Shown here in pieces: positions 27,411-56,102 of a DNA stretch of 64,000 nucleotides. Each line of letters begins with the position of its first letter. The first letter of the stretch is position 1. The translations under genes and the position numbers were made by a program. The stretch covers positions 62,001-126,000 of the forward strand of contig CANJQJ010000001.1 in the NCBI GenBank assembly GCA_947476425.1, given 5' to 3'. This DNA is from Sphingomonadaceae bacterium (GTDB taxonomy: Bacteria; Pseudomonadota; Alphaproteobacteria; Sphingomonadales; Sphingomonadaceae). Under the pieces are notes generated by a model. The model had not been told where the DNA came from. It saw only the letters and a list, made by a program, of their open reading frames with translations, and made no database searches.

Positions 27411-27498
<88 letters not shown>

Positions 27499-28053: not shown

Positions 28054-28311
28054 TTAATAGATACGATCTGGTTTCGATTCTAGTTGAGGCTGCGGCAGCG
28101 CAATGCCCAGCCGTCTTGCCGTGTGGAATTCCACCATCGGTGGCCCCGGCATATAGGTGCCGCTGGCCAGTTCTTGTTGATAGGCCACTTCGACAACTGA
28201 AAGCGGGCCGTTCGTGTAGATCACGCCATCAGGCGGTTCATTCGTGACAACAAAGCCGCCATCGACGCATTCGACCCTGAAGGACATGTCGCCCATTTGC
28301 ATGATGAACAT
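28054..28311 (-). CDS. Small hypothetical protein
   Basis: About 85 residues, acidic, single domain, no signal peptide or membrane span. The ATG at 28311 has AAGGAA nine bases upstream; the frame opens further to 28350. I do not recognise it. Its composition is balanced and unlike the Arg/Ser-rich shadow frames around it, which is the main reason to keep it. It is the last gene on the leftward strand of the element. Confidence 0.45.
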   Translation of the reverse strand: MFIMQMGDMSFRVECVDGGFVVTNEPPDGVIYTNGPLSVVEVAYQQELASGTYMPGPPMVEFHTARRLGIALPQPQLESKPDRIY

Positions 28312-28499
28312 TATTACACGTTCCTTATGATAGGCCTTGCCATCGTCCATCGTCTCACTTGATTAACTGACTATGCAACCATGCTAACTTGACGGCAACA
28401 GCATTACTGGTTGATCGCCATTCGCAGGGCGCACCCCCGCGCCGCATGCCGCCAGCGGTGACGACACATGGCAATCCAGCGATTTTGGCTAAGGCTAAT

Positions 28500-28889
28500 C
28501 TATGGGTAGCGATCAAACACCGCGCCGACCTGCTCCGCCCACGGCAACTCCGCCATCGCCGCCAAATCCTTTCCCGACACCGTCGGCGCAATGCGCGCGA
28601 TCAGCAGCTTTTCCAGCACGGCTGGCGCCAGATAAGCCAGCTTGAGCATCCGACCAACGTAGGGCGGCGTGACGCCCTCGGCCTCTGCGATGTCGGACAT
28701 GGTGGCAACTGCACCCGATTCCAGCTTGCGCCGCCAGCTCCACGCCTTGGCAATTGCCTTCAGGATGTGCGGGTCCACGCCGCCAGTTTCCGGGGCCATA
28801 TCGGAGGGTGGCACTATCTTCGGTCGGCCGTTACGCTTGCGGATGGCCAGCGGGATGATGACCCGGATGGTGGTGGGCGCGACGCTCAT
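28500..28889 (-). CDS. Putative DNA-binding protein of the recombinase cassette
   Basis: A 129-residue protein with a basic N-terminus (AIRKRNGRPKIVPP) and a central ParB/KorB-like helix-turn-helix stretch (TMSDIAEAEGVTPPYVGRMLKLAYLAP). Its start overlaps the recombinase stop as ATGA, so the two are translationally coupled. By position it may be a directionality factor or accessory DNA-binding partner; that is inference, as I know no characterised member. Confidence 0.7.
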   Translation of the reverse strand: MSVAPTTIRVIIPLAIRKRNGRPKIVPPSDMAPETGGVDPHILKAIAKAWSWRRKLESGAVATMSDIAEAEGVTPPYVGRMLKLAYLAPAVLEKLLIARIAPTVSGKDLAAMAELPWAEQVGAVFDRYP

Positions 28890-30205: not shown

Positions 30206-30684
30206 GCCGCGGCCCTCTTGTGTTCACGAAGGCCGAAGAAGCGGTAGCCGTTCCAGCGGGTGCCGGTGATGTCCCGGGCGATGGACGACAGGGACTTGTA
30301 GCGCCGTCCCTGCCAGTCGAACCCGTCCCTGAGCACGGTTATCACGTGCTCGGCCCCGTCCCATTCGCGCACCAGCCGGGTGCCGATGACCGGGTTGCGC
30401 GGATCACTGATCACCGTGCGCCGGACCTTCTTGCCCTCGACCTCATCGGCCAGGGCGTCGAGGAGCTTGGCGGCTGGCCCGCCCACCCCACCGAGGGCCA
30501 GCTCCTGTATCCTGTAGGCGAGCCGATGTTCCAGAAACTGGCGGCTGTTATTGGGCGCAGGCGTGCCGATTAGGCTCTGCCACTGCGCCTTCAGTTCAAC
30601 CACCGACATGGCTTTCATGGCGGCGAGCCGCCCCAGCAGCTGACCATCGGGTCGCGCTGCCGATCTTACGCGTTCTGTTTGCAT
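30202..30684 (-). CDS. DUF2924 protein of the recombinase cassette
   Basis: A 160-residue basic protein with the DUF2924 features: SVVELKAQWQSLIGTPAPNNSRQFLEHRLAYRIQELA, then GTRLVREWDGAEHVITVLRDGFDWQGRRYKSLSSIAR and GTRWNGYRFFGL. DUF2924 genes are regularly found directly upstream of serine recombinases in alphaproteobacterial mobile DNA, but their function is unknown to me. Coupled to the recombinase (ATGA) and to the upstream small gene (TAATG). The C-terminal half looks like an AHR/RAMA-type DNA-binding module. Confidence 0.85.
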   Translation of the reverse strand: MQTERVRSAARPDGQLLGRLAAMKAMSVVELKAQWQSLIGTPAPNNSRQFLEHRLAYRIQELALGGVGGPAAKLLDALADEVEGKKVRRTVISDPRNPVIGTRLVREWDGAEHVITVLRDGFDWQGRRYKSLSSIARDITGTRWNGYRFFGLREHKRAAA

Positions 30685-30902
30685 TATTGTCCTCCAACTC
30701 GGGCCTCTGCCCGGGGACGACTGACGCTCTTGGTGACCGGGATAGCGAGTGAACTATCTCCCAACTCGCCAGATATAGAACTGGACTGTTGACGCATCCG
30801 CAGAACACCGCTCGCCAGTATTCGGCCCAACTCGGACAGCCGAGCATCGGCGGACAATTCGTGGGGCGGCGTAGAGTTCGGACCGCTGAGACAGGATTGC
30901 AT
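30684..30902 (-). CDS. Small first gene of the recombinase cassette
   Basis: A 72-residue product with one conserved-looking block, LSADARLSELGRILASGVLRMRQ, and a basic C-terminus. Its TAA stop shares its last base with the ATG of the DUF2924 gene (TAATG), and GGAGGA within its last codons serves as the ribosome site for that gene. I recall similar short proteins preceding DUF2924 genes in other alphaproteobacteria, but no function. Together with the coupling this supports it as a real gene. Confidence 0.55.
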   Translation of the reverse strand: MQSCLSGPNSTPPHELSADARLSELGRILASGVLRMRQQSSSISGELGDSSLAIPVTKSVSRPRAEARVGGQ

Positions 30903-31044
30903 AGAAGATTCCGCATAAAAGGCTGGGCGTCACGGAACGCCGCCTATGCGGATCCATCCCCTGATCAGTGAGGGGAGAATAAGGTGGGATATATCCCGCG
31001 TCAACGCGAGACGGGCATCCAGCTTCCCGCAAAATGCAGGTGGG
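30903..31044. other. Leader and promoter space of the recombinase cassette
   Basis: Non-coding spacer between the repressor gene stop and the recombinase cassette. It contains the promoter/operator at 30976-31004 and a roughly 60-base leader running leftward. No further gene is seen. Confidence 0.5.
30976..31004 (-). promoter_or_regulatory. Predicted promoter of the recombinase cassette with repressor-type operator
   Basis: On the minus strand: -35 TTGACG (31004-30999), a 17-base spacer, -10 TATTCT (30981-30976). The perfect palindrome GGGATATATCCC (30986-30997) fills the spacer. The same GGGA-N4-TCCC pattern occurs beside the CI-like gene, so the repressor probably controls this promoter. 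Confidence 0.65.
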
Positions 31045-31770
31045 TCAGCGCCTGCGCTGATATAGGTTCTGGTGCGAGCGCAGCACGATGCCGATAATGT
31101 TGATGCCTTCGTCGCCAATATGATCCTCGTCCGGCTTGCCGACCACCATCGGCTCGTGAAACTCGGCGCGGGTAGATTCCGCGCGCAGGATATAATTGGT
31201 CCCGTCATGGTCGAGCCGCTTGCAGGTCAGTTCATGCAGGTCGTGCCGATCGCGCTGGACAATCACGATGTCGCCCAGCTGAGGTTCGACCACGCCAAAG
31301 GTAACCCGCAGGCATTCGAGGTCGGAGCCAGGCGGGATGATCTTGTCCATGGAGAAGCCCTCCATCCGCAGAGCAAAACGCTCGCCGCCATGGACAGGAT
31401 TGGGCCCAACCTCAATCATATAGCGGTCTTCTGCCGCCCAATTCGTCTGTTCGCGCCAAACGCCGGCCGCGACCGCACCGACCACTTCGAGCTGCTCGGC
31501 GCCCCCTGTCATGCCAACGCGCGGCATCAATGTCGCGGCAGACGCGACCAGCTGAGAGAGGTCCATGCCAAGCGCCTTGGCGATGCCAAGGATCGTCTCA
31601 AGCTGGGGGTTGGCGCTCTTGCCGCGGATAATGTCACGCACCAGATGCGGGCTCTTTCCCGCAGACGCTGCCAGCGAGAGCGAGCGCGCATTCCACTTCG
31701 CCCCGCTGGACGTGGCTTCCTCCAGGACGCGGCGTAGATGCGCCACATCGAATAGTGGTTTCTCTGTCAT
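31045..31770 (-). CDS. CI/LexA-like phage repressor (HTH plus S24 peptidase domain)
   Basis: A 241-residue repressor with an N-terminal HTH (SLSLAASAGKSPHLVRDIIRGKSANPQLETIL) and a C-terminal S24 LexA-like domain. The catalytic Ser lies in RMEGFSMDKIIPPG, and the Lys is probably in ELTCKRLDHDG; the likely self-cleavage Ala-Gly-type site is VGAVAAGVWRE. Such proteins maintain lysogeny and are inactivated by RecA during the SOS response. It is divergent from the Cro-like gene with 97 bases between them that hold two operators. Confidence 0.9.
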   Translation of the reverse strand: MTEKPLFDVAHLRRVLEEATSSGAKWNARSLSLAASAGKSPHLVRDIIRGKSANPQLETILGIAKALGMDLSQLVASAATLMPRVGMTGGAEQLEVVGAVAAGVWREQTNWAAEDRYMIEVGPNPVHGGERFALRMEGFSMDKIIPPGSDLECLRVTFGVVEPQLGDIVIVQRDRHDLHELTCKRLDHDGTNYILRAESTRAEFHEPMVVGKPDEDHIGDEGINIIGIVLRSHQNLYQRRR

Positions 31771-31786
31771 GACCTACCGACTAGCA

Positions 31787-31806
31787 TTGCGGGACGTTTC
31801 CCGCAA
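31787..31806. promoter_or_regulatory. Operator beside the repressor gene (perfect inverted repeat)
   Basis: TTGCGGGA-CGTT-TCCCGCAA, a perfect 8-4-8 inverted repeat, 17 bases upstream of the repressor start codon. A consensus -10 box TATAAT for the repressor gene lies at 31817-31812 on the minus strand, so bound protein would sit over the transcription start, fitting negative autoregulation. Confidence 0.7.
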
Positions 31807-31832
31807 TATACATTATATCCGCAGGATCAGGA

Positions 31833-31860
31833 TTGATGTGTAGGATTTATCCCGTAATAA
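31833..31860 (+). promoter_or_regulatory. Predicted early promoter with operator in the spacer
   Basis: -35 TTGATG (31833-31838), 16-base spacer, -10 TAATAA (31855-31860). The operator-like AGGATTTATCCC (31842-31853) lies in the spacer. The predicted start of transcription falls at or next to the ATG of the Cro-like gene at 31868, so its mRNA may be leaderless. Confidence 0.6.
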
Positions 31861-31867
31861 TCCGGGC

Positions 31868-32080
31868 ATGACATCGCACCCGCTCCTCTCCGATATCGAC
31901 GCATTCCTCCGGATCCATAAGCTCAGCGAGAGCGCCTTTGGCCGCCACGCCGTCAACGACTGGAAGCTGATTCGTCAGCTCAAGGCCGGTCGCCGGCTCT
32001 GGCCCGACACCGAAGCGCGCGTTCGCACCTTCATGATCACCTATCAACCGGCGCCCCGCCGCAAGAAGGCAGCACAGTGA
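31868..32080 (+). CDS. Small Cro-like DNA-binding protein (putative)
   Basis: A 70-residue basic protein with a short helical array (SDIDAFLRIHKLSESAFGRHAVNDWKLIRQLKAGRRL) that resembles a minimal HTH, and a basic tail RRKKAAQ. It is the first gene on the early rightward strand, directly opposite the CI-like repressor, the usual place for Cro. No strong ribosome site is seen. Its stop overlaps the next gene's GTG start (GTGA). Confidence 0.65.
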   Translation: MTSHPLLSDIDAFLRIHKLSESAFGRHAVNDWKLIRQLKAGRRLWPDTEARVRTFMITYQPAPRRKKAAQ

Positions 32081-32880
32081 GCGGCGCCTTCGAACGCCAT
32101 GGGCTCGACCATCTGTCTGCGTCCTCGATCAACCTGTTCGTGGCCCAGCCATCGATGTGGGCAATGCAGAAGCTGATGGGTCGTAAATCGACCGTCGGCC
32201 CTGCCGCCCACCGCGGCACATCCATTGAAGCCGGTGTCGAGATGGGCCTGTTTGAGCCCGATGCGCCGGTTGAGGCCTGTCAGGAACTGGCGATTGCCCG
32301 GTTTAACCAGCTGACTGCGCTGTCCGGTCACCCTGGCGTCGACAAGGAACGCGCCGCCATTGGCCCGGCCGTCGCCATTGGTCTGGCGGAATTGCGCCAA
32401 TACGGCGTTCCGGCAGCTGCGGACGGCAACCGCCAGCATCGGATCGAGGTTCAACTTCCCGGTGTGCCTGTGCCGTTCATAGGCTGGCTCGACTTCTGGT
32501 TCCCGGAGCACGGCATCATCGTCGATCTCAAGACCCAGCTGCGGCTGTCGTCCAAGATCTCCGATCCCCATTCCCGGCAAGGCGCGATCTACCATGCCGC
32601 CCACGGTAATGCCGAGATCCGCTTTGCTTACGTTACGCCGCAGAAGGTCGGGGTCTATAAACTCGAGGACCCGCGCAGCCACCTCGCCCGCGTGGTCAGC
32701 ATTGCCCAGTCGATAGAGCGGTTCCTGTCGCTGTCGGACGACGGCGCGGCACTGACCCGGTCGCTCTCGCCGGACTTCGACAGCTTTTACTGGAATGACC
32801 CCGGCGCCCGCGCGGCCGCCGAAGAAATCTGGGGCTTGGCCCCCGAAGGCGATGCCGCCTGCCTGAACGCGGCCCACTGA
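32077..32880 (+). CDS. PD-(D/E)XK family nuclease (RecB/Cas4-like, phage type)
   Basis: A 267-residue protein with the N-terminal RecB-nuclease signature HLSASSINLFVAQPSMW and the catalytic core GWLDFWFPEHGIIVDLKT, where the Asp of GWLDF and the D-x-K of VDLKT form the metal site, followed by QGAIYHAAHG (motif with the conserved Q and Y). Starts with GTG coupled to the Cro-like gene. Likely a 5'-3' exonuclease for phage recombination, given the ssDNA-binding candidate next door. Confidence 0.82.
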   Translation: MSGAFERHGLDHLSASSINLFVAQPSMWAMQKLMGRKSTVGPAAHRGTSIEAGVEMGLFEPDAPVEACQELAIARFNQLTALSGHPGVDKERAAIGPAVAIGLAELRQYGVPAAADGNRQHRIEVQLPGVPVPFIGWLDFWFPEHGIIVDLKTQLRLSSKISDPHSRQGAIYHAAHGNAEIRFAYVTPQKVGVYKLEDPRSHLARVVSIAQSIERFLSLSDDGAALTRSLSPDFDSFYWNDPGARAAAEEIWGLAPEGDAACLNAAH

Positions 32881-32899
32881 GAGAAGAGGAAACAGGATC

Positions 32900-33532
32900 A
32901 TGGGTTTCATGACGCCCCCGTCATCGGGCGGGGATTTCAAGGTGTTTGTCTCGTATAATGCGAAGGCAGGGCGCTGGTACACAAAGCGCGATGGCAAGGA
33001 TGAGCCGCAGTTCGAGGTCGCCGATATGACAGCGGTGTTCGACATGCCGGGCCTCAAGACCGGCTGGTTCAAGTTCTCGGCCGGGGTCGCGCCGGAAAAG
33101 GTGATGGACCCGTCGTTCACCGCGGCGGCCGCCAATCCCGGCCAGGACTTCAAGCGCGGCTTCATGCTCGACCTGTTCAGCGACAAAAACCTGCTCGGTG
33201 TGCGCGAATTCTCGTCCACGGCCGGCATCGTCATCGACGCGATGAACGACCTCTTTGATGCCTGGATGGCCGCGCCCGAAGTGGCCACCGGCCAGTTGCC
33301 GGTCGTGCGTTGTGTTGGTGTCTTTCCGGTCACCAACAAGCACGGCACCAACTACCAGCCCAAGTTCGAGATCGTTGGCTGGACAGCACGTCCCGAGGCG
33401 CTGGGTGACAGTGACCAGCCGGCACCGGCCGCACCGACACAGGCACCGGCAGCAACGCCTCCGGTCCCCACTACTCCCGCCGCGCATATGCCGCCGCCCG
33501 CAGCCGCTGCGCCCGGCGCGCCGCTGTTCTGA
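32900..33532 (+). CDS. Putative phage ssDNA-binding protein
   Basis: A 210-residue protein with a compact N-terminal domain of alternating beta-like segments (FKVFVSYNAKAGRWYTKRDG, GWFKFSAGVAPEKVMDPSF) and a long, low-complexity Pro/Ala/Thr tail ending in APLF. The order of an ordered domain, a disordered Pro-rich linker and a hydrophobic C-terminal tip resembles SSB architecture, though acidic residues are missing from the tip. Function is inferred from this layout and from its place between nuclease and primase-helicase genes. Confidence 0.6.
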   Translation: MGFMTPPSSGGDFKVFVSYNAKAGRWYTKRDGKDEPQFEVADMTAVFDMPGLKTGWFKFSAGVAPEKVMDPSFTAAAANPGQDFKRGFMLDLFSDKNLLGVREFSSTAGIVIDAMNDLFDAWMAAPEVATGQLPVVRCVGVFPVTNKHGTNYQPKFEIVGWTARPEALGDSDQPAPAAPTQAPAATPPVPTTPAAHMPPPAAAAPGAPLF

Positions 33533-33613
33533 TCAGCAGCATGCCGGGCCGCTTCGGTGGTCCGGCATGCGCGCGTCTCAGATCCATCCCCGCAGAAAGT
33601 GATCCTGGCCGTC

Positions 33614-35641
33614 ATGGCGCGTCGTATTGAAACCGGCAGTATCGATATCGAGGCGATCAAGGATCAGTACCCGCTGGCCGATGCGGTTCGCCGACATCTG
33701 GTGCTGAAGCGCCGGGGACATACCATGGTGGGCCTGTGCCCGTTCCACATGGAGCGCACGCCGTCCTTCACCGTCTACCCGCAGGAACAACGGTTCCACT
33801 GCTTCGGCTGCGGGGCTCACGGCGACATTTTCGATTTCCTGCAACATCAGGAAGGCCTCGATATCCGCGCCGCGGCCGAGCACCTGACGGGCGGAACTTT
33901 CCCCGTCATGTCGGCCGACCGCGTCGCCGAACTCAAATCCCGTCAGGCGCTGTTCGAGGCCGAACAGGCAACGCGCCGCGATGTCGCCATGCGCCAGGCG
34001 CGCGAGCGCTGGATTGCTGCGGACCCGACCTACACCAGCCATTGCTATCTCGACGCCAAGGGCATCAAACCCAACGGTACGCGGCTCGATGGCGCCCATA
34101 TTCTCGTGCCGCTCCACGGGCCAGACGGCAAAATCCAGACCCTGCAGACGATTGATCCCGCCGGCCACAAGCTGTTCTGCTCCGACCTGCCAACAGCAGC
34201 GGGCATGTTCGTCATTGGACAGAAGATTGCCGAGACTGCTGGGCCGGTCCTTGTCTGCGAAGGCTTTGCCACCGCCGCCACGCTCCATGAAGCCACCGGC
34301 CACACTGTCGTCGTTGCGTTCAATGCCGGCAATCTCGCCAAGGTCGCCGAGCGGCTGGCAGCAACTCATTTCGGAATACACTGGATCGTGGCTGGCGATG
34401 ATGATCGCGGCAAGGCCAAGAACCCCGGACGCGAAGCGGCCATCGCAGCTGCCCGCATCCTCGGTTGCCCTGCGGTGTTCCCCGAATTCCCAGCCGTCAG
34501 CCTCGGCACTGACTTCAACGATATGGCTGCAGTGTCGGGCCTGGAGGCCGTCAGGGCCTTACTGGATGCTGACAGCCCCGCCGCCTGCCCTGACGTCTAC
34601 GAGACCCTCAGCCTCGACGAGATCGACAACATGCTGCCGCCCAGCTGGCGGATCGAAGGCCTGATCCCGGCGCACGCGCTGGTTCTGCTCTACGGCCGGC
34701 CAGGCGAGCACAAGACCTTCATCGCGCTCGATATGGTGCTGCGGGTTGCCTACGGCCTCGACTGGCACGGGAAACCCACCAAGCAGACCGGCGTCCTCTA
34801 CATTGCCGGTGAAGGCAAATACGGCATTGGTCAGCGCATCAAAGGCTGGCGCCGCGAGCACGGGCTGGAAGCCGTCGACGCGCCGTTCAAGCTGCTGCCC
34901 CTCGCCGTCCACATGCTCGATCCTGCCAGCATCGAGAAGCTGAAGCGGACGATCGACCAGGTGCGCGCCGAGGTTGATTTTGAGATCGGGCTCGTCGTGA
35001 TCGACACCGTGTCGCGCTCGATCCCCGGCGAGGACGAGAACAGCCAAGAAGCCATGTCGATGTTCATCGATGGCTGCGCCAATATCCAGCAGCATTGCTG
35101 TGGCAGCGTGATCGGCATCCACCATGCCGGCAAGGATCTCGACCGCGGCATGCGCGGCTCGACTGTGCTGCTGGGCGGCTGCGACACCTCTATCCGGGTT
35201 GCCAAGGACGAGGCCACCACCGTCCTGTCGGTTGAGAAGCAGAAGGACGGCGAAGAACTCGACGACCTGCATTTCACGATGAAGGTCGTCGATCTGACCA
35301 CGGGGCTTGGGGCCGAGCAAAGCACACTGGTGCCGGTATTGGGCACAGGTGCAAAGCCGGTCGGCGAAAAGCGCCTCAGCTGGCACCAGATCCGCGAGAT
35401 CTTCCAGGCGATCGACGAGGCCTGGCGTGCCGGCGCACCCTGGTCCGTATTCCCCCATGCCCGGCGCAAGGGACGCTTCGCTGTCGACCTGATCTCCGAT
35501 CAATACGGGGTCACCAAGCGCGAGGCAGAGACCTCGATCACCAAGTGGCAGCAGCACGGCTACCTCGTCACCGAGGCCGGAAAGTTCCACGGCAAGGCCT
35601 CTGGACTGCGGGTCGTGAAGTACCTGGAGCCCGACCGATGA
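33614..35641 (+). CDS. Phage primase-helicase fusion (CHC2 zinc finger, TOPRIM, RepA-like ATPase)
   Basis: A 675-residue replication protein. N-terminal CHC2 zinc finger with C42, H45, C63 and C66; a TOPRIM region (VLVCEGFATAATLHEATGH, then VAGDDDRGKAKNPG); and a RecA-like helicase/ATPase domain with Walker A GRPGEHKT at 361-368 and Walker B GLVVIDTVSRS. The C-terminus has a winged-helix-like part. It would prime and unwind the element's DNA. The ATG at 33614 begins the conserved part; a GTG at 33557 is possible. Confidence 0.9.
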   Translation: MARRIETGSIDIEAIKDQYPLADAVRRHLVLKRRGHTMVGLCPFHMERTPSFTVYPQEQRFHCFGCGAHGDIFDFLQHQEGLDIRAAAEHLTGGTFPVMSADRVAELKSRQALFEAEQATRRDVAMRQARERWIAADPTYTSHCYLDAKGIKPNGTRLDGAHILVPLHGPDGKIQTLQTIDPAGHKLFCSDLPTAAGMFVIGQKIAETAGPVLVCEGFATAATLHEATGHTVVVAFNAGNLAKVAERLAATHFGIHWIVAGDDDRGKAKNPGREAAIAAARILGCPAVFPEFPAVSLGTDFNDMAAVSGLEAVRALLDADSPAACPDVYETLSLDEIDNMLPPSWRIEGLIPAHALVLLYGRPGEHKTFIALDMVLRVAYGLDWHGKPTKQTGVLYIAGEGKYGIGQRIKGWRREHGLEAVDAPFKLLPLAVHMLDPASIEKLKRTIDQVRAEVDFEIGLVVIDTVSRSIPGEDENSQEAMSMFIDGCANIQQHCCGSVIGIHHAGKDLDRGMRGSTVLLGGCDTSIRVAKDEATTVLSVEKQKDGEELDDLHFTMKVVDLTTGLGAEQSTLVPVLGTGAKPVGEKRLSWHQIREIFQAIDEAWRAGAPWSVFPHARRKGRFAVDLISDQYGVTKREAETSITKWQQHGYLVTEAGKFHGKASGLRVVKYLEPDR

Positions 35642-35838
35642 GCCCCAAAATCCAGTTGTCGGAAGCAGTCGGAAGCACGGTTTTGCGTCAGTCGGAAGCC
35701 AGTCGGAAGGCGGCGGAAGCACGGTCGCAAGCTGTCGGAACGCGCAGTCGCTTCCCCCCCATACCCCCTAGGGGCTTCCGACAACGCCCAAGCGCGTCGT
35801 CAGCCTCATTTTTTATCAGTGAAAGGGGGGGCGCATGA
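35638..35838 (+). CDS. Small coupled ORF across the repeat array
   Basis: A 66-residue frame, Ser/Ala/Arg-rich, of no recognised family. In favour of translation: its start overlaps the primase-helicase stop (ATGA) and its stop overlaps the next start (ATGA). Against: its middle is made by short DNA repeats (GTCGGAAGC), giving repetitive residues such as SEASRKAAEAR, so the DNA may matter more than the peptide. Confidence 0.4.
   Translation: MSPKIQLSEAVGSTVLRQSEASRKAAEARSQAVGTRSRFPPIPPRGFRQRPSASSASFFISERGGA
35658..35782. repeat. Array of nine-base direct repeats (GTCGGAAGC), iteron-like
   Basis: Exact copies at 35658, 35668 and 35691; variants at 35702 (last base G), 35712 (GGCGGAAGC) and 35734 (GTCGGAACG); and an inverted exact copy GCTTCCGAC at 35774-35782. 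The longer unit GGAAGCACGGT also occurs twice (35671, 35715). The array directly follows the primase-helicase gene, a typical place for a phage or plasmid origin. Confidence 0.65.
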
Positions 35839-36377
35839 AGGGCGCGCCACCGACCCGGCATGGTCAGATCAGCGACATGCAGGTCATCATCAACTGTGTC
35901 GACCAGCGTGGCCGGGAACTGGATCAGCACTGGGGCATCGGGCGTTTGCCCATGCTTGTGCCGATCGAGTGGGCCGAACGGTTTCGCGCCCAGCACAAGC
36001 TGTTCAACGCTGCGGTGTGGGAGTTCGACCTCACGCTCGTTCGCCAGCACGGCGATGCGATGCTGCGGGCCTACGACAAGCTCGACCAGTTGGCCCGGGA
36101 AGCCAAGGGCGCACCTCTGCCGGTCGACCAGTGGGAATTCGAGACCGACGTCGGCCTCGTCATTCTCGTGCGGGACCTGCGCGATACCGGCCGGGCCCAG
36201 CGTCACGGACGGGCTGCCCAGGTCTGGTCACTCGACGAGATCGCCAACGTCATCCGCTTCCATCCGATCCTGGCCGCCGCCAAGAACGCGTTCCCAGAGG
36301 CACAGGTGGTGAGCGTCCGTCCCAGCCGCGCCGCGCTCGATCAGCTCGATGACGAACTTTCGGACATCCCCTTCTGA
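35835..36377 (+). CDS. Conserved phage-type protein with SSB-like C-terminal tip
   Basis: A 180-residue protein of unrecognised family with a helical central part (WAERFRAQHKLFNAAVWEFDLTL). Its last residues, LDDELSDIPF, closely match the acidic D-D-x-I-P-F tip of bacterial SSB, which recruits many replication and repair proteins. No OB fold is evident, so this may be a partner-recruiting adaptor rather than a true SSB. A purine-rich AAAGGGGGGG stretch before the ATG may serve as ribosome site. Confidence 0.65.
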   Translation: MKGAPPTRHGQISDMQVIINCVDQRGRELDQHWGIGRLPMLVPIEWAERFRAQHKLFNAAVWEFDLTLVRQHGDAMLRAYDKLDQLAREAKGAPLPVDQWEFETDVGLVILVRDLRDTGRAQRHGRAAQVWSLDEIANVIRFHPILAAAKNAFPEAQVVSVRPSRAALDQLDDELSDIPF

Positions 36378-36492
36378 TGGAGATCCCGATGACCTGAACC
36401 CACCCCAGACCGGACGACAGTGGTCCGTACCGCCAAGCACAAAAACCACTGCCGTCCGCACCACGACCGATTCCATTTTGAGGAGAACAATC

Positions 36493-37032
36493 ATGGATGT
36501 TCTGACTTTGCCTGCGCTGTGCCGCAGCGCAATCACGCCGGTGCCAAGACCGGTCACAATCATGCGGGCATCAACCTTGGCCCTCGACCTTGGCACCAGC
36601 ACTGGCTGGGCGCTGCAGACGGGCGACGACTTCATCTCGAGCGGCACGGTGTCGCTCAAACACACCCGCTTCGATGGCGGTGGTATGCGGTTCCTGCGCT
36701 TTCGCCGCTGGCTCGAACAGCTTGACCTCGATGCAGGGCCGATCGCTGCCGTCCACTTCGAAGAGGTGCGCCGGCATGTCGGGACCGATGCCGCCCATGT
36801 CTACGGCGGCCTGCTCGCCACGCTCAGCGCCTGGTGCGAGGAGCATCTGGTCGCTTACCAAGGCGTGCCGGTCGGGACGATCAAGCAGTTCATCGCCGGC
36901 AAGGGCAATGCCGACAAGGCTGCCGTGATTGCTGCGGTGCAGGCCAGGGGTTTTGCACCCGCCGACGACAACGAGGCTGATGCGATCGCCATCCTGCTCT
37001 GGGCCATTGCGACCAAGGGAGGTGTGCGATGA
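36493..37032 (+). CDS. RuvC-like Holliday junction resolvase (phage type)
   Basis: A 179-residue RNase H-fold nuclease. The first catalytic Asp is in LALDLGTSTGWAL, the Glu in VHFEEVRRHVG, and the C-terminal acidic pair in ADDNEADAIAILLWA. The layout is that of RuvC-family phage resolvases, expected to resolve recombination or replication junctions. The ATG at 36493 has AGGAGA seven bases upstream; a second possible start is at 36562. Its stop overlaps the next gene (ATGA). Confidence 0.85.
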   Translation: MDVLTLPALCRSAITPVPRPVTIMRASTLALDLGTSTGWALQTGDDFISSGTVSLKHTRFDGGGMRFLRFRRWLEQLDLDAGPIAAVHFEEVRRHVGTDAAHVYGGLLATLSAWCEEHLVAYQGVPVGTIKQFIAGKGNADKAAVIAAVQARGFAPADDNEADAIAILLWAIATKGGVR

Positions 37033-46629: not shown

Positions 46630-47046
46630 ATGAAAATCGGCGAGCTGGCAAAGGCGACCGCGACCAAAGTGGAAACCGTCCGCTTCTACGAAAAAGCGGG
46701 GCTGCTGCCGCCGCCTGCGCGGACCGATGCCAATTATCGCAGCTACGGCCCCGCGCATCTCCAGCGTCTGTCGTTCATCCGCCGCGCGCGCGATCTGGGC
46801 TTCAGCGTCGACGCCGTGCGCGATCTGCTCGCGCTCGCCGATGATCGGGGCAAGCCCTGCGGTGCAGTCGATGCGATCGCCAGCGGGCATCTGGCGGAAG
46901 TCGAACGCAAGATTGCCGACCTTTCCGCGATGCGCGAGGAACTCACGCGGGTGATCGGAAGCTGCCGGCATAATACTGTTGCCGACTGCAAGATCATCGA
47001 AACATTGGGGCCGCGGGTCGCGGCCACCACGGAAACACCAGCATGA
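46630..47046 (+). CDS. cadR: MerR-family metal-responsive regulator (CadR/PbrR-like)
   Basis: A 138-residue regulator with the N-terminal MerR HTH (IGELAKATATKVETVRFYEKAGLL), a dimerisation helix, and metal ligands C77, C112, H114 and C120; the C77/C112/C-terminal Cys pattern is that of the Cd/Pb/Zn-sensing branch. It starts seven bases after its operator, so it likely controls both itself and the leftward exporter operon. Coupled to the MFS gene by ATGA. Exact metal cannot be told. Confidence 0.9.
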   Translation: MKIGELAKATATKVETVRFYEKAGLLPPPARTDANYRSYGPAHLQRLSFIRRARDLGFSVDAVRDLLALADDRGKPCGAVDAIASGHLAEVERKIADLSAMREELTRVIGSCRHNTVADCKIIETLGPRVAATTETPA

Positions 47047-49085: not shown

Positions 49086-49514
49086 TCAATGCCGCGCATA
49101 GACAAACGTCGGTCCCGCACCGAAGGCGATTACATTGTACCGATCCGCCTGCCGCCCGGGCGCTTCCATACCGGGCGACCCCAGGGGCATCCCTGCAACT
49201 GCCAGCCCGCGAACACCGCGCGGCTTCGCGGCCAAGACGCGCTTCATGTCGGCAATGGGCACATGCCCTTCAAACGCCATGCCATCGATGATTGCGGTGT
49301 GACAGCCGGAAAGCGCCGCAGGCACCCCTAAGCGTGCATCGAGTGCGGCGCGGTGGGCATCGTCGACGATCCTGACATTGCGTCCGAACGCGGCGCGCAC
49401 TTGGGCTGCCCATTTCTCGCAGCAGCCGCAGCCGGGGTCACGATGCATGACAATATCCGATGCAGCCATCGCCGGAGTTGCGAACAGCATGAGGGCCAGG
49501 ATGATCTTCTTCAT
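49086..49514 (-). CDS. DUF411 periplasmic metal-binding protein
   Basis: A 142-residue protein with a signal peptide (MKKIILALMLFATPAMA) and the DUF411 motif HRDPGCGCCEKW, plus LSGCHTAIIDGMAFEGHVP. Family members are linked to copper resistance and its CxCC site should bind Cu+. Last gene of the leftward cop operon; it follows the COG4705 gene after 18 bases. Confidence 0.88.
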   Translation of the reverse strand: MKKIILALMLFATPAMAASDIVMHRDPGCGCCEKWAAQVRAAFGRNVRIVDDAHRAALDARLGVPAALSGCHTAIIDGMAFEGHVPIADMKRVLAAKPRGVRGLAVAGMPLGSPGMEAPGRQADRYNVIAFGAGPTFVYARH

Positions 49515-49532
49515 GGCGGGGATCCTTCGTTG

Positions 49533-50330
49533 CTATGGTTTTGATTCGCCCGGGTGGCTTCCGGCGCGTTGCGGGAGCAGCATGATCAACAGGATGATCA
49601 CGATTGCCAAAGCCGCCGAGGCCAATGGACGGCTCAACGCAAGTCCGCCCTGATCGAGCGGCTTATCAAGAAAATCACCAACGGCTGCGCCAAGTGGCCG
49701 CGTCAGGATGAAGGCTGACCAGAACAGGAGCGTTCGACTGATCGTGGTTCTGAAATAGAGCAATGCGACCACCGCGAGCATCACCGCAAAAATGCCTGCC
49801 GCGCCGATATAGCCTCGCCCCCCGGTATCGGCTAGCCAATCGCCCAGCGCGGTTCCCAGCGTTTGTGAAAAGGTGATCGTGATCCAGTAGAATGTCTCGG
49901 CGCGTGGCTCCTTCACGCTGACCACCGAAATCGTTCCCAGACCGCGATGCCAAGCGAACAGCGATGCCAGCACCAGCCCGAACAGCAACAGCGAACCGCC
50001 GGTATAGCCAATCCCCATCGAACGGGTCGCATAGTCGGCCATGGTCGTTCCGGCCGTCGTCGAGGCGATGATCGTCGCCCAATAGAGCATCGGATGAAAC
50101 CGGCTTGCCCGGATTTGCCACCGCACGAGCAGCACCAGAATGCTGAGAAAAATCGCTGTGCCGACGAGGTAGCCAAGGTTCATCGACATACTGACCGTAT
50201 CGCCGCCGGTTTCGCCAAGCGTTGTCGCCAGGATCTTGATGATCCAGAACCCGAGCGTCACCGCAGGCACTTTGGTCAAATCGGAGAGCGGAATGGACGC
50301 TCGATCGCCGGGGAGATTTGGCTCTGTCAT
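49533..50330 (-). CDS. COG4705-type membrane protein
   Basis: A 265-residue multispan protein of the COG4705 family. It contains four related segments with a G-T/x-x-G-D core (TLGETGGDT, GTTMADYATRS, GTALGDWLAD, GAAVGDFLD), which suggests internal duplication. The acidic residues inside membrane helices hint at cation transport, but no function is established to my knowledge. Its place between copB and a DUF411 gene argues for a role in metal handling. Confidence 0.75.
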   Translation of the reverse strand: MTEPNLPGDRASIPLSDLTKVPAVTLGFWIIKILATTLGETGGDTVSMSMNLGYLVGTAIFLSILVLLVRWQIRASRFHPMLYWATIIASTTAGTTMADYATRSMGIGYTGGSLLLFGLVLASLFAWHRGLGTISVVSVKEPRAETFYWITITFSQTLGTALGDWLADTGGRGYIGAAGIFAVMLAVVALLYFRTTISRTLLFWSAFILTRPLGAAVGDFLDKPLDQGGLALSRPLASAALAIVIILLIMLLPQRAGSHPGESKP

Positions 50331-50381
50331 ATCAAGGTCCTTTATGTCCGGGCTATCCTGTCCGGCGAGCGAGATTGTTAA

Positions 50382-51467
50382 TCAGAACCACGTCCTGATG
50401 CCGATGACCAGACTGGTGGATTGCACGCGGTCACCCGCAGCGCGTGCGAAGTGGGCACTGTCGCCGAATTTTCGCTCCCATGACACGCCAATGTAGGGCG
50501 CGAACTCGCGTTTGATCTCGTAGCGCAACCGAAGTCCAAGCTCGGCGTCGGAGAAGCCCGAACCGATGCCATTCGCAGGCACATCCTGCGCTGAAAAGTT
50601 GAGTTCGACGCGCGGTTGCAGGATCAATCTCTGGGCGATGCGTTGATCATAATAGCCCCCGATCCGTCCCAGCAGGTCCCCCTTGTCTGAGAGGAACAGC
50701 GCGCCGCCAACCTTGAACCAGTTTGGGGCAATCCCTTCGATGCCGATCGTCGCATAGGTTCGCGCCGGGCCCGGTTTGAAATCATGCCGGACACCGGCTT
50801 GCAGATTGAACCAGGGATCGATCGCGCGGGAGTAGAGCGCCTGCACCTCGGCGCTGTCGATGCCGCCGCGAACGGCACCTTCGCCTTCGGTCTTCACAAC
50901 CAAACGTTCGATGTCGCCGCCGAACCAGGCTTCGGCGTCCCAGCGATAGGCGTCCCCACCCTTTTGAACACGATACTCGGCAAGATTGAAGGTGACGCTA
51001 TAGGCGGGCATGCCGCCATTTTCGTGCCGGAGCATCGTGCGCGACGTCGCCATTTGATCAGCGCCAAAAATACCGTCAGCAGCATGATCGGTGGGCGGAG
51101 CGGGAGCCGGTGTTGTGCCGATCTCGTTGTCTGGCGGCTCCATGCCCGGCATTCCAGTCATGCCCGACATGTCATGGCCCGCATGGGGGTCAGCCGAGGC
51201 GGGGGCTCCTGGCTGTCCCATCTCCATGCCTGGCATGGACGACATGTCGTGATCGGGCGCAGGTTCGGGCGGATTGGGTGTGGCAGGGGACATGTCCATG
51301 CCCGGCATCGGGTCCGTACTCGCAGCAGGCTTGGGCGCAGGCTTGGGTTTTGGAGCGGGCTGGGCGGGCTGCTCCATTCCAGACATCGCGCCGTGATCCA
51401 TCTGCGCGGCGGCAGGCGATGCGACTGCCATTGCGGCAACGGCGGCGCTGGCGAGCGAAAGCTTCAT
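50382..51467 (-). CDS. copB: Copper resistance protein B (outer membrane)
   Basis: A 361-residue outer membrane protein. Signal peptide MKLSLASAAVAAMAVASPAAA, then a long Met/His/Pro-rich segment with repeats of the type M-x-G-M and H-D-M (SMPGMEMG, HDMSGMTGMPGM) that bind Cu, then the CopB beta-barrel ending in IRTWF. Coupled to copA by ATGA overlap. Works with CopA in periplasmic and outer membrane copper sequestration. Confidence 0.93.
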   Translation of the reverse strand: MKLSLASAAVAAMAVASPAAAQMDHGAMSGMEQPAQPAPKPKPAPKPAASTDPMPGMDMSPATPNPPEPAPDHDMSSMPGMEMGQPGAPASADPHAGHDMSGMTGMPGMEPPDNEIGTTPAPAPPTDHAADGIFGADQMATSRTMLRHENGGMPAYSVTFNLAEYRVQKGGDAYRWDAEAWFGGDIERLVVKTEGEGAVRGGIDSAEVQALYSRAIDPWFNLQAGVRHDFKPGPARTYATIGIEGIAPNWFKVGGALFLSDKGDLLGRIGGYYDQRIAQRLILQPRVELNFSAQDVPANGIGSGFSDAELGLRLRYEIKREFAPYIGVSWERKFGDSAHFARAAGDRVQSTSLVIGIRTWF

Positions 51468-53257
51468 GCCGCAGCCTCCTCGTGGCGCACCGTGACGACG
51501 CGGAACATCCCCGCCATCATGTGGAGCAGCATATGGCAGTGGAAGGCCCAATCGCCGAGCGCGTCGGCGGTCAGATCGAAAGATACCTTGCCGCCCGGCA
51601 GTACGTTGACCGTATGTTTGACCGGATGACGGCCGGGATTGCCGGTCACAACCTCGAAGAAATGGCCATGCAGGTGGATCGGGTGGGGCATCATCGTGTC
51701 GTTGATCAGATTGACCCGCACCCGCTCACTGTGCCGGAATGCGATCGGCTCGGTCCCCTCGCTGAACTTCACGCCATCGAACGACCACATATAGCGTTCC
51801 ATATTGGCGGTCAGATGAAGGTCGATCTCGCGCGACGGTGTGCGGGTGTCGGCATTGGGCCTGAGCGATTTAAGGTCGCGGTAGGTCAGCACGCGGTGAT
51901 CAACCTTTTCAAGTCCAGTGGGGCGCTCTCCGGTGCGATCCATCGGCATGGGTGCCAGTGTCGCCACACCCGGCCCCATCTTCACCTGCGGCGCAACGGA
52001 CGGATCGCGCATTTTCATCGCGCCGCCGGTCATATCCATGCCGGCCATTGAGTCCTTTGCTGACGGCGCCGAAGCAGCTGCGGAATGGTCCATACCCGCC
52101 ATAGCGCCTCCGCTCTTATCAGCAGCACCCATATCCATCTCGCCCATTCCCATGTCCTTCACGGTCAGGAGCGGGCGCTCGCGGAGCGCGGGGATGGCCG
52201 CGACCATGTCCATGCGCGGCGCGAGTGTGGCGCGGCAAAGGCCCGAGCGGTCGATAGACTCAGCGATCAGGCCATAGGCGCGATCGTCATTTGGCTGGAC
52301 GATCACATCATAGGTTTCGGCAATGGCGATCTGGAACTCGTCGGTTTCGACGGGCTCGATGTTCTGGCCATCCGCCGCGACGACGATCATCGGCAAACCG
52401 GGCAACCGCACATTGAAATTGGTCATGGCCGAAGCGTTGATGATACGCAGCCGCACCCGCTCGCCGGGGACAAACAGTGCAGTCCAATTGTCCGCGCTGG
52501 CATGCCCATTGATCAGGTAGCTGTAAGTCGAGCCGTTGACGTCGGCGATGTCGGTCGGGTCCATCCGCATGCCCGCCCACATCCGGCGGTCAGCCGCCGT
52601 TTGATCTTGGCCCTTGAGCAGGCCCGAAAGCGTCTGCTGGTTGTGGTTGAAATAACCGCCCATCGCCTTCAGCTTCCGCATCTGTTCCATCGGATGCATG
52701 AAGCTCCAGTCGGACAGCACGACCACATGCTCACGGTCATAAGCGACCGGATCGGGGCCTGCCGGATCGATGACGATGGCCCCATACAGGCCCATCGCCT
52801 CCTGCCCTCCCGAATGGCTGTGATACCAATAGGTGCCGGACTGCTTGACTTCGAACGCGTAATTATAGGTCTCACCGGGCTTGATCCCTGGGAAACTGAC
52901 GCCGGGAACGCCGTCCATCTGGAACGGCAAGAGGATGCCATGCCAGTGGATTGAGGAATCCTCTTTCAGCGTGTTGGTGACGGCAAGGCGGACCTTCTGA
53001 CCTTCCTTCAGGCGGATGACCGGCCCGGGAAGCGTTCCGTTGACCGTCACAGCATGTCCGGTCTTCCCGCCTATGCTGAACGGTGTATGGCCAATGGACA
53101 GGGCAATCTCTTCGCCGCTCAAAACTTCCGGAGTGCGTCCAAGGCCCGGCGTTCCGCTCCGCGCCCAGGCTGGAAACAGCGGTGTCAGGGCAAGGCCGCC
53201 GCTGGTTAACGCTGCACCGCGCAAGAGGGTCCGCCGGGAAACGGGGTAAGCGATCAT
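51464..53257 (-). CDS. copA: CopA-type multicopper oxidase
   Basis: A 597-residue periplasmic copper oxidase exported by Tat: SRRTLLRG twin-arginine signal. The four copper motifs are visible: IHWHG, YWYHSHSG, HPIHLHGHFFEV and FHCHMLLHMMAGM. The region before the C-terminal sites is Met-rich (GMGEMDMGAAD, MAGMDHS, MAGMDMTG). It oxidises toxic Cu(I) to Cu(II). Preceded by an ECF sigma gene 66 bases upstream, which probably controls it. Confidence 0.95.
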   Translation of the reverse strand: MIAYPVSRRTLLRGAALTSGGLALTPLFPAWARSGTPGLGRTPEVLSGEEIALSIGHTPFSIGGKTGHAVTVNGTLPGPVIRLKEGQKVRLAVTNTLKEDSSIHWHGILLPFQMDGVPGVSFPGIKPGETYNYAFEVKQSGTYWYHSHSGGQEAMGLYGAIVIDPAGPDPVAYDREHVVVLSDWSFMHPMEQMRKLKAMGGYFNHNQQTLSGLLKGQDQTAADRRMWAGMRMDPTDIADVNGSTYSYLINGHASADNWTALFVPGERVRLRIINASAMTNFNVRLPGLPMIVVAADGQNIEPVETDEFQIAIAETYDVIVQPNDDRAYGLIAESIDRSGLCRATLAPRMDMVAAIPALRERPLLTVKDMGMGEMDMGAADKSGGAMAGMDHSAAASAPSAKDSMAGMDMTGGAMKMRDPSVAPQVKMGPGVATLAPMPMDRTGERPTGLEKVDHRVLTYRDLKSLRPNADTRTPSREIDLHLTANMERYMWSFDGVKFSEGTEPIAFRHSERVRVNLINDTMMPHPIHLHGHFFEVVTGNPGRHPVKHTVNVLPGGKVSFDLTADALGDWAFHCHMLLHMMAGMFRVVTVRHEEAAA

Positions 53258-53323
53258 ATGCGGGTGTCCAGCGAAGAGGATGTTGGTGATCGAAGGTGAC
53301 CTTGGTGATACGCACCCCGTCGC

Positions 53324-53887
53324 TCAATCCCTCAGATATTCGGTCAATTTGCTCCGAGCGCGGTAAAGCCGGGTTTCTACGGCCTTTTCACTGATGCCCA
53401 ACACCTCGGCAGTCTCGGCCTGCGTCAGCCCTTCGATGGTGCGCAGGATCAAGGGTTCGCGGATCATTGGCGGCAGTTTGGCAATCCCTGCGCGCACGCG
53501 GGCAAGTTCGGCCCGGTCGGCAAGCTGCTGATCGGCAGGTATGCTGTCATCGGCAATCGACGCTGCAGCTTCAAGCGGCAGGGCGAACGAAAAGAACCGC
53601 CGCACCGCGCGCCGCCTTGCCCAATCGCGGCACTTATTGAGCGCGATCCGCGATACCCAAGTCTTGAAGGGACGCGTGACATCATAGCTTTTGAGCGCCG
53701 CAAAGGCCGCGATGAATGCCTCCTGGGTGACATCGAGCGCGGCATCATCGTCACCCGTGTTGCCCCGCACCAGACGGAAGACGGACGCGCGGTGGCGATC
53801 AAGGAGTTCGCGGAAAGCAGTCTGCCGTCCTGCGAGGGCAAGCGCCGCCAACTCGCCGTCGGAACACTCGTCCAGCGCCAGCGTCAT
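53324..53887 (-). CDS. ECF sigma factor, CnrH-like
   Basis: A 187-residue extracytoplasmic-function sigma factor. Region 2 contains DVTQEAFIAAFAALKSYD and FKTWVSRIALNKCRDWARRR; region 4 contains LPPMIREPLILRTIEGLTQAETAEVLGISEKAVETRLYRAR. It is third in an operon after CnrY- and CnrX-like genes, with four-base ATGA overlaps, the same order as cnrYXH of Cupriavidus. Inferred to activate this operon and the copAB genes downstream. Confidence 0.92.
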   Translation of the reverse strand: MTLALDECSDGELAALALAGRQTAFRELLDRHRASVFRLVRGNTGDDDAALDVTQEAFIAAFAALKSYDVTRPFKTWVSRIALNKCRDWARRRAVRRFFSFALPLEAAASIADDSIPADQQLADRAELARVRAGIAKLPPMIREPLILRTIEGLTQAETAEVLGISEKAVETRLYRARSKLTEYLRD

Positions 53888-54324
53888 TTCTGATCGGCAG
53901 TGAGCGCTTTGACCACGGCCTCATCGAATCTCGCCGCTTGATCAGGCCTGAGCAACGCGCGCATCGCAAAGATATGTTCCAGCGTTTCTTTTTGCAATTC
54001 GCCCATCGCCATATGCGATTGGTCGATTGCGGCGGTGACTTGCGGACCATAGCCATGTTCGGCCTCGATTGCGGCCGCCAGCTTGGCATTGTCGGCGCGC
54101 ATCTCGAGCTCGAGCGCTTTGCGGCGCACTGCAAATACCTGCTCCAGCTCTTCCAGTTTTGCGAGTTGGGCGGCGTCAAGATTGAGCTGATCGTGCAGCA
54201 GTGCATGAAGTTCGCTGTCAGCGGCTGGATTGGGTGCAAGTACGGCCCGGCCCAGCCAAACACCAGCAATCGCCGCAGCGAATGCGATCAAGGCAACCAG
54301 CAGCATGCGGCGCAGACTGGTCAC
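53884..54324 (-). CDS. CnrX-like periplasmic metal sensor
   Basis: A 146-residue membrane-anchored sensor (span about residues 7-25) with a helical periplasmic domain. The five ligands of CnrX in Cupriavidus (H42, H46, E63, H119, M123) align with H40, H44, E61, H117 and M121, all displaced by exactly two. That predicts a Co/Ni-type site, although the neighbouring genes are for copper. Metal binding should change its hold on the anti-sigma factor. Also related to Spy/CpxP-fold proteins. Confidence 0.88.
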   Translation of the reverse strand: MTSLRRMLLVALIAFAAAIAGVWLGRAVLAPNPAADSELHALLHDQLNLDAAQLAKLEELEQVFAVRRKALELEMRADNAKLAAAIEAEHGYGPQVTAAIDQSHMAMGELQKETLEHIFAMRALLRPDQAARFDEAVVKALTADQK

Positions 54325-54602
54325 TTCGAGGCCAGCAGCAACGAAGACGGCGCCAGCGCGTGCGGCACACCAAAGGACGAAACTGACGGTGCGGTAGAAG
54401 CGGGGCTCCCGGGAAATCCCGTGCTTATGATGCCGAACGCGAGGGCGGCAACCGCGGCGATGCTGAGTGACCGCAGCGAATTGCCTGCAGCGGAACTCAG
54501 TTGCACGGCCAGACCGGCAAACACGGCCTCATCCATAGTCGCCAGACGCGACGGGAGCGGTGCGCCGCCAATCTGGGCCAACATCTCGTCAAGGTTGCTC
54601 AT
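54321..54602 (-). CDS. CnrY-like membrane anti-sigma factor (putative)
   Basis: A 93-residue protein with a short cytoplasmic N-terminal part (LDEMLAQIGGAPLPSRLATMDEAVFAGLA), one membrane span (SIAAVAALAFGIIS), and a short periplasmic tail. The layout matches CnrY, which holds CnrH through a minimal N-terminal segment. Assignment depends on layout and gene order as much as on sequence. Overlaps the sensor gene by ATGA. Confidence 0.75.
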   Translation of the reverse strand: MSNLDEMLAQIGGAPLPSRLATMDEAVFAGLAVQLSSAAGNSLRSLSIAAVAALAFGIISTGFPGSPASTAPSVSSFGVPHALAPSSLLLASK

Positions 54603-54683
54603 CGCGATAATCTCAGGTTTCGCTACTTATACGCAAGGCAAGACCATATCCCTCAATACCAGAGTTATCGGTCGCAAGCGGAT

Positions 54684-54734
54684 TTTTCAAGGGTCCGTTA
54701 TTTTCAAAGGCCCGCTATTTTCAAGGGCAGGGCT
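54684..54734. repeat. Three tandem 17-bp repeats in the cnr/cop divergent promoter region
   Basis: TTTTCAAGGGTCCGTTA, TTTTCAAAGGCCCGCTA and TTTTCAAGGGCAGGGCT follow each other with a strict 17-base period in the 176-base gap between the CnrY-like gene and copC. They look like binding sites for a regulator of one or both operons. Confidence 0.7.
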
Positions 54735-54778
54735 TCGGCGCTGCGTATTTACCATGACACCCTTGATGGAGAACGTTC

Positions 54779-55165
54779 ATGTCCAAACTTCGCCTTGCAT
54801 TCACCGCGCCCATTCTGGCCGCTCTTGCATTCGCAGGAAGCGCGCAGGCCCACACCAATCTGGTATCTTCGTCTCCTGCAGCCAATGCAATCGTTGCCAA
54901 GCCTGGCCGGATCGTATTGACCTTCAACGAACGAGTCGTCGCCAACTTTACCGGAGCAACCCTCGCCATGACCTCGATGCCGGGGATGGCAAGTCACGCG
55001 CCGATGGCAATCACGGGCTTCACCTCAGCCATGAGCGCCGACGGCAAGACGCTGACGCTGACAATGCGGCGCGCGCTTGCGGCTGGCACCTACCAGCTTC
55101 AATGGCACGCAGCGGGTGCAGACACGCACCGTATGGAAGGCACTCTGTCCTTCACCGTGCGATAG
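54779..55165 (+). CDS. copC: Copper resistance protein CopC
   Basis: A 128-residue periplasmic copper chaperone. Signal peptide ends at AQA, leaving H25 as the mature N-terminus (HTNLVSSSP), the usual Cu(II) ligand of CopC, with the SSPAANAIV and VLTFNERV strands, a Met-rich loop (MTSMPGMASHAPM) for Cu(I), and HRMEGTLSFTV at the C-terminus. One base separates it from copD. Confidence 0.93.
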   Translation: MSKLRLAFTAPILAALAFAGSAQAHTNLVSSSPAANAIVAKPGRIVLTFNERVVANFTGATLAMTSMPGMASHAPMAITGFTSAMSADGKTLTLTMRRALAAGTYQLQWHAAGADTHRMEGTLSFTVR

Positions 55166-55166
55166 G

Positions 55167-56102
55167 GTGATCGACGCATTGACCATCGGCATCAGGTTCG
55201 CTCTCTATGTGAACCTTATGCTGTTGTTCGGGCTGCCGCTGTTCGGGCTTTATGCCTTGAAGGGCGCGGAGCGGCTACACGGCAATGTGCTGCCGCTCCG
55301 CGCGCTGACAATCTGGCTGTCGGCTGCGGGCATTGCCCTGTCGGTGTTGAGCATTTTCGCGATGACTGCCTCGATGGCGGGCGTTGCGCTGCTTGAGGTT
55401 GACCGTGCTTCGGTCGGCATGATGATCTCCGAAACTCCGATGGGGAATGCCTGGGCTGTCCGCATGGCAGCGCTGCTCGCGACGCTCACCATCGCGATCG
55501 CGGTGGGTCGGGGCAAAGCTCCGGCTTGGCTGGTGCTGGTGTCGCTTGGATCGGCAACCGCGCTTGCCTCGCTGGCATGGACAGGTCACGGGGCCGCGAG
55601 CGATGGTGTCGCAGGAACGCGCCATCTTATCGCGGACATCGTGCATTTGTTGGCGGCCGGCGCTTGGATCGGTGCGCTTGCGGCACTCGGCGCGCTGCTG
55701 TTTCGTCCCGCGCGCGCGATGTCGGACGATCATATCCGGCTCACACACCGCGCGCTCAACGGCTTTTCGCTTATCGGAACGCTGATTGTTGCGCTGATCG
55801 TCTTGTCCGGCCTGGTGAATAGCTGGATGCTGGTTGGCCCCGAACATCTGCTGTCGATGCGTTCAACACTCTATGGGCGGCTGCTCATAGCAAAGCTTTT
55901 GCTGTTTGCGGCGATGTTGGGCCTGGCAGCGGCAAACCGGTTCCGCCTGACACCGGCATTTGATCAAGGCATAAAGGGGGGTGGAACACTATCGGCCATC
56001 CGCCGTTTACGCTTGAGCGTAGTCTTCGAGAAGAGCGCAGCGCTCGCCATCCTTGGCCTTGTCGCATGGCTTGGAACCCTTGAACCGCCGATGGCGATGT
56101 GA
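55167..56102 (+). CDS. copD: Copper resistance membrane protein CopD
   Basis: A 311-residue inner membrane protein of about eight spans, with [37 protein letters not shown] and [23 protein letters not shown] typical of CopD, which is thought to move copper inward from CopC. The frame extends upstream inside copC; the GTG at 55167 immediately after the copC stop is the natural start. Confidence 0.9.

Follow-up and report, generated by a model that had tools for sequence, protein, structure and literature searches.

A CnrYXH-type sigma factor switch, probably dedicated to copper, in a Sphingomonadaceae bacterium

We describe a sigma factor switch of the CnrYXH type in a Sphingomonadaceae bacterium that is probably a copper-dedicated version of this system. 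CnrYXH is known as a nickel/cobalt system. The locus lies in a stretch of 64,000 nucleotides (assembly GCA_947476425.1, contig CANJQJ010000001.1, positions 62,001 to 126,000), hereafter the window, to whose first letter all our coordinates refer. An initial annotation had proposed that the switch is wired to copper genes. This proposal is supported by the promoters of the locus and by the copper genes that accompany the great majority of related loci.

Results

Organization of the locus

As had been claimed, the genes for the putative anti-sigma factor, the sensor, and the sigma factor follow one another on the minus strand, with an overlap of 4 nt at both joints (Table 1). In plasmid pMOL28 of Cupriavidus metallidurans, cnrX and cnrH likewise overlap by 4 nt, and cnrY and cnrX by 1 nt. 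Family matches confirmed copA, copB, and the DUF347 and DUF411 genes downstream; for copB, the ATG overlapping the stop codon of copA was chosen as the start. The region originally delimited, 49086-54602, correctly included this cop operon but left outside the divergent copC-copD pair with its promoter. CopD of pSLPG gave tblastn matches in other loci as well as in the frame of the window that we assign to copD, and a gene for a copper P-type ATPase lies beyond copC-copD. The COG4705/DUF347 gene is an uncommon passenger, present in the window and in one of the 150 other sensor loci considered below.

Table 1. Features of the switch and its copper genes in the window
Feature	Position	Strand	Basis
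Promoter P1, TGAGGG-N15-GCGTAT, ahead of anti-sigma gene	54629..54655	-	motif match
Promoter P2, TGAGGG-N15-GCGTAT, ahead of copA	53308..53334	-	motif match
Promoter P3, CAAGGG-N15-GCGTAT, facing copC	54722..54748	+	motif match
Putative membrane anti-sigma, 93 aa, one hydrophobic segment, CnrY position	54321..54602	-	ORF
CnrX-type periplasmic metal sensor; H40, H44, E61, H117, M121 and D101, H104, M107	53884..54324	-	PF13801; CnrX chains
CnrH-type ECF sigma factor	53324..53887	-	Pfam regions 2 and 4; PDB 4cxf (CnrH)
copA, multicopper oxidase, copper resistance type	51464..53257	-	TIGR01480, 829 bits (cut-off 479)
copB	50382..51467	-	PF05275, 2.1e-86
COG4705/DUF347 membrane protein	49533..50330	-	PF03988
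DUF411 protein	49086..49514	-	PF04214
copC, divergent	54779..55165	+	NF033814 above cut-off
copD, start uncertain	55167..56102	+	tblastn match to CopD of pSLPG

The sensor matched its Pfam family at 1.8e-17, and CnrX chains were its best solved relatives in a PDB sequence search (1.5e-20). Alignment with these chains is gap-free between H40 and M121, which upholds the earlier statement that all five CnrX ligands are kept with identical spacing; H40, H44, E61, H117, and M121 correspond to what we take to be H42, H46, E63, H119, and M123 of CnrX. E63 is named in the title of one PDB entry, and Met123 in PMC7689651. The predicted structure of the sensor (mean pLDDT 84.6) found CnrX structures as matches 1-14 and NccX as the 15th.

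CnrH was the best solved relative of the sigma factor in the PDB search (2.4e-34 versus 1.3e-19 for the next best). The match to region 4 covers residues 130-181, with no cysteine beyond. The protein encoded by the first gene is probably the anti-sigma factor, judging from its position and one-helix shape. These two CnrY-like traits sustain that part of the initial annotation, but no Pfam or NCBIfam family matched the protein, and NF033790, the CnrY/NccY family that is matched by all five nickel-linked anti-sigmas, did not match it either. A profile of the anti-sigma family aligned weakly with CnrY, at an hhalign probability of 63%, and the same profile did not find any CnrY chain in the PDB. 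Homology to CnrY by sequence was thus not upheld, and here the system departs from CnrYXH, since no more than the membrane segment and tail of its anti-sigma can be aligned with CnrY.

Promoters of the switch and of the copper genes

Three similar sites precede the anti-sigma gene, copA, and copC, the -35 box of P2 sitting within the final codons of the sigma gene. The pattern YRAGGG-N15-GCGTA matched the bacterium's own genome six times; three of these matches are P1, P2, and P3, and the remaining three lie inside reading frames of unrelated genes. Since the reversed control pattern had nine matches, the match count is not raised, and the evidence resides in the clustering of three sites within 1.5 kb. 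None of the nickel efflux genes of this genome carries the motif, nor does any of the other genes of the metal cluster that surrounds the locus. Judging from the CnrH-type promoters of Cupriavidus, the sigma factor would read P1, P2, and P3. The start site of pMOL28 cnrC at 54660 of that plasmid, as given in PMC9045368, places CGAGGG at -35 and CCGTAT at -13 with a spacer of 16; pMOL28 cnrY has CAAGGG and a spacer equal to that of cnrC. Because the cnrY start site at 53286 is marked RpoD in the portion of PMC11647585 that lists it, cnrC is the cleaner yardstick. Upstream of copC, at about 54681-54735 on the plus strand, are three imperfect copies of TTTTCAAGGG spaced some 20 bases apart, the last of which forms the -35 region of P3.

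The initial annotation had also considered that copAB might be transcribed from a CopR-type promoter only. This found no support: a promoter of the sigma type lies directly ahead of copA, and no match in the genome reached the cut-off of the CopR/SilR/CztR family (best 213 bits versus 279), so that dependence of copAB on a CopR promoter was rejected. In a broader form of this idea, control of copAB would fall to some other regulator of the CueR or CopR kind, with the sigma gene as a mere neighbour. A MerR/CueR-like gene does lie at 46630-47046, about 2 kb past the end of the operon, although it scores below the CueR cut-off. We nevertheless regard this explanation as highly improbable, since the CopR-family cut-off was reached by no match and since, among the relatives, the promoter type stays with copA and copC even when these genes are displaced.

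In 59 dereplicated upstream regions, GAGGG-N16-CGTA facing the anti-sigma gene occurred in 52 and TACGC-N15-CCCT, the element in the opposite orientation, in 48, compared with at most five for every gapped pair in shuffled regions. A 14-letter score built from the discovered motif was then applied to 220-nt regions, with five shuffles per region; the discovery set included the P1 and P3 regions, leaving P2 as the independent test. A score of at least 12 was reached by the copA promoter at 73 of 74 loci (shuffles 1/370), the copC promoter at 56 of 57 (shuffles 1/285), and the anti-sigma promoter at 73 of 84 (shuffles 4/420). All 11 anti-sigma misses are loci with copC about 1.3 kb away, and in each of them one strict motif lies about 1.1 kb upstream of the sensor and a second one faces copC; thus, the pair is present but displaced. 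The hexamers were 15 apart in every region that scored at least 11.

The strict motif was likewise concentrated at the copper genes. It stood ahead of copA in 103 of 111 cases where copA lies directly downstream (copA elsewhere: 10/23), ahead of 66 of 67 divergent copC genes (copC elsewhere: 31/40), and ahead of 55 of 57 anti-sigma genes. Lower frequencies were seen for DUF305 genes (19/41) and DUF411 genes (17/67). By comparison, the motif preceded none of 126 copB, 102 copD, 66 merR, or 32 cusC genes and 7 of 76 P-type ATPases, and random pieces carried it in 123 of 3765 cases (3.3%). At two of the seven nickel-linked loci (L121 and L177), no such site was found ahead of cnrC.

Copper genes accompany most relatives of the switch

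Of 59 related genomes, 11 carry the sensor, counting the one from which the window comes; at the level of the class it turned up in 13 of 385, with 8 of these 13 matches weaker than 1e-8. With CnrX as the query, 19 of 398 genomes of the phylum were matched. A CnrX relative was present in 48 of 119 genomes of the family taken to include Asticcacaulis and Caulobacter, and in 6 of 249 of the family of the Cupriavidus-type genome, where each was 82-100% identical to CnrX. Plasmids carry the sensor too, in 79 records, of which 40 are predicted to be conjugative.

We labelled sensor loci by their neighbours within 7 kb, nickel-type efflux being scored by CnrA/B/C alone. Eighty named loci, the best 80 of 546 and therefore close relatives of the window, came mostly from sphingomonads and had been found by a peptide pattern that contained H117, which is thus not independent in this set, and contained neither H104 nor M107. 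Of these loci, 78 were copper-linked and 2 were not; the sigma gene came directly after the sensor in 79, the remaining one (L048) running off its contig. Sixty further stretches represent part of the genomes matched by the CnrX, window sensor, or A1 queries. The sigma gene was seen in 150 of the 151 sensor loci in total. One or more of copA, copB, copC, and copD lay within 7 kb in 135 loci, and cnrC just downstream in 7; 3 had Cus-type efflux only, and the remaining 6, of which two lie close to contig ends, had neither. As some loci had been fetched twice under different names, we also give the counts of unique sequences, namely 116 copper-linked, 5 nickel-linked, 2 Cus-only, and 5 other. With 135 of 151 loci copper-linked, a chance pairing in the window was rejected.

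One genome, G754, carries a nickel-type locus together with copper-type loci; at one of its contig ends (L180) stand two divergent sensor genes, with one sigma gene seen. In another genome (G007; L007 and L013) the module is broken, matches to sensor and sigma being scattered over several frames.

Two residues separate copper-linked from nickel-linked sensors

All 116 unique copper-linked sensors have both H104 and M107. In contrast, the five unique nickel-linked sensors, a small set that forms a single clade, all have Glu and Ala at these positions, and the contrast must therefore be read as one event. In the stretches from the genome searches (L177-L231, 51 unique rows), both residues were present in 44 of 44 copper-linked sensors. 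Within the 116 copper-linked sequences they are more constant than two of the primary ligands, H40 (112/116) and M121 (111/116). The two residues share a long helix with H117 and M121 in the predicted structure, H104 being 13 residues ahead of H117. The soluble domain of CnrX has a single methionine according to the title of a reference listed in PMC7689651, which makes M107 an additional one.

We infer that H104 and M107 help to set specificity for copper; they might make up a further site or serve a structural purpose. A tentative proposal, on the doubtful side of even, is that H104 and M107, together with D101, make up a second, copper-selective site on the helix of H117 and M121, that these sensors are two-site copper detectors, and that the Ni/Co sensor CnrX represents a lineage lacking this second site and retaining the one with five ligands. 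If so, nature has already made the metal-swap experiment, with both kinds of sensor even within genome G754.

Of the seven unique Cus-only or other sensors, five have H104 and M107. The exceptions, L227 and L228, come from related operons; their sensors have none of the five ligands and neither H104 nor M107, yet a similar promoter motif is retained ahead of the anti-sigma gene. What these two sensors respond to may be something other than a metal. Three related copper-linked sensors (L047, L061, and L063) have Leu in place of M121 and keep H104 and M107.

A quick tree of 98 rows, rooted on L227/L228, drew the nickel clade as a long branch among copper rows. The tree constrained to place nickel outside scored higher than the quick tree, and in the AU test nickel outside copper was not rejected (p 0.638). 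The nesting of nickel systems inside copper systems was therefore not upheld.

Discussion

The initial annotation offered two options, that the site senses copper in this setting or that Co/Ni induces the copper defence. Since cop genes are the usual partners of the switch and nickel efflux the exception, and since the sensors differ at H104/M107, our data favour the first, and copper is the likelier inducer. That nickel or cobalt is still the main signal, copper defence being a side effect or an anticipatory response, we consider unlikely. The five ligands of the nickel/cobalt site are indeed complete in the window, in 108 of 116 unique copper-linked sensors, and in all five unique nickel-linked ones, and 10 mM nickel raises copA, copB, and copC in Sphingobium ba1, according to the results given in the part of PMC5557971 on which we draw. 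The copAB operon of ba1 was set aside as a test case; as described in the same source, it starts with two dehydrogenase genes and is unmatched to the module. Speaking against a nickel/cobalt sensor are the lack of any motif-bearing nickel efflux gene in the bacterium's own genome, the absence of H104/M107 from nickel-linked sensors, and genome G754, whose two kinds of locus would be redundant if both sensed nickel.

Slightly less probable still is a broadly tuned sensor that answers to Cu, Ag, Au, and Ni in the periplasm and switches on a general defence of the copper type. CnrX crystallizes with Ni, Co, Zn, and Cu, going by entry titles (3epv for copper), and the whole cnr cluster of C. metallidurans rises under acute copper in the account excerpted from PMC7563307. 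The motif, however, tracks cop genes and not Cus efflux. The crystal with copper and the rise of the cnr cluster under copper also count in favour of copper as the signal.

If copper is the signal, the membrane-anchored sensor would bind excess periplasmic copper and alter the adjacent small membrane protein that holds the sigma factor. The freed sigma factor would direct RNA polymerase to the three promoters of the TGAGGG-N15-GCGTAT type and so raise the output of its own switch operon, of copA-copB-COG4705-DUF411, and of the divergent copCD.

The arrangement resembles CnrYXH of C. metallidurans pMOL28, and with it NccYXH, in its gene order, its overlaps, its five-ligand sensor of the CnrX fold, its CnrH-like sigma factor, and its promoters, which lie ahead of the first gene and between the sigma gene and the target operon and have similar -35 and -10 elements. 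It differs in that the targets are copAB and copCD rather than the cnrCBA nickel/cobalt efflux genes, the sensor has H104/M107 where the nickel clade has Glu/Ala, the spacer is 15 instead of 16, and a third promoter faces copC.

Other ECF sigma factors have been tied to copper. CorE of Myxococcus xanthus (ECF44/ECF238), named as the copper ECF in a 2023 paper on copper signalling, is likewise linked to copper genes; unlike the present system, with its separate periplasmic sensor, CorE has no anti-sigma and binds copper with a cysteine-rich tail of its own, according to the relevant section of that paper (PMC10141476). A C-terminal extension of this kind is absent from the 187-aa sigma factor of the window. 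SigAb-AabA-AabB of Acinetobacter baumannii is a copper-responsive ECF system with a small anti-sigma predicted to form a complex resembling CnrY-CnrH; in the description excerpted from PMC12153292, the order is sigma-first, metal genes belong mostly to the indirect regulon, and CnrX is unnamed. SigF-NrsF of Caulobacter crescentus represents an alphaproteobacterial ECF regulon induced by copper, but the portion of PMC8224329 that describes it gives another anti-sigma and other targets and makes no mention of a CnrX-type sensor. Among the open-licence papers searched, we found no description of a copper form of CnrYXH. The parts are annotated publicly, the sensor as 'periplasmic heavy metal sensor', but the circuit is not.

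A large group of bacteria from soil and water thereby gains a likely copper regulator, whose promoter sequence lets the regulon be read from genomes. The relatives of CnrYXH in the examined loci are mostly copper-tied, many of them on conjugative plasmids, so the nickel/cobalt system, though the familiar one, may be in the minority. How a single scaffold selects its metal can also be compared in nature itself, between sensors that have H104/M107 beside the same five ligands and sensors that do not, with both kinds present in G754.

The locus belongs to a metal cluster at 39446-64000 of the window, which comprises a CnrA-like RND efflux system (37% identity), a cation efflux gene, the CueR-like MerR gene, the copper P-type ATPase, a DUF305 gene, and, at the window's end, a Cus-type efflux operon. 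Comparison of the DNA with plasmids gave partial matches only, none of 54 records reaching 80% cover. Ahead of the cluster, at 27411-37032, tRNA-Ser(CGA) is followed by a resolvase/recombinase gene (28886-30205, minus strand) and genes for an S24 peptidase and a primase-helicase-like protein, an arrangement that resembles the edge of a mobile island.
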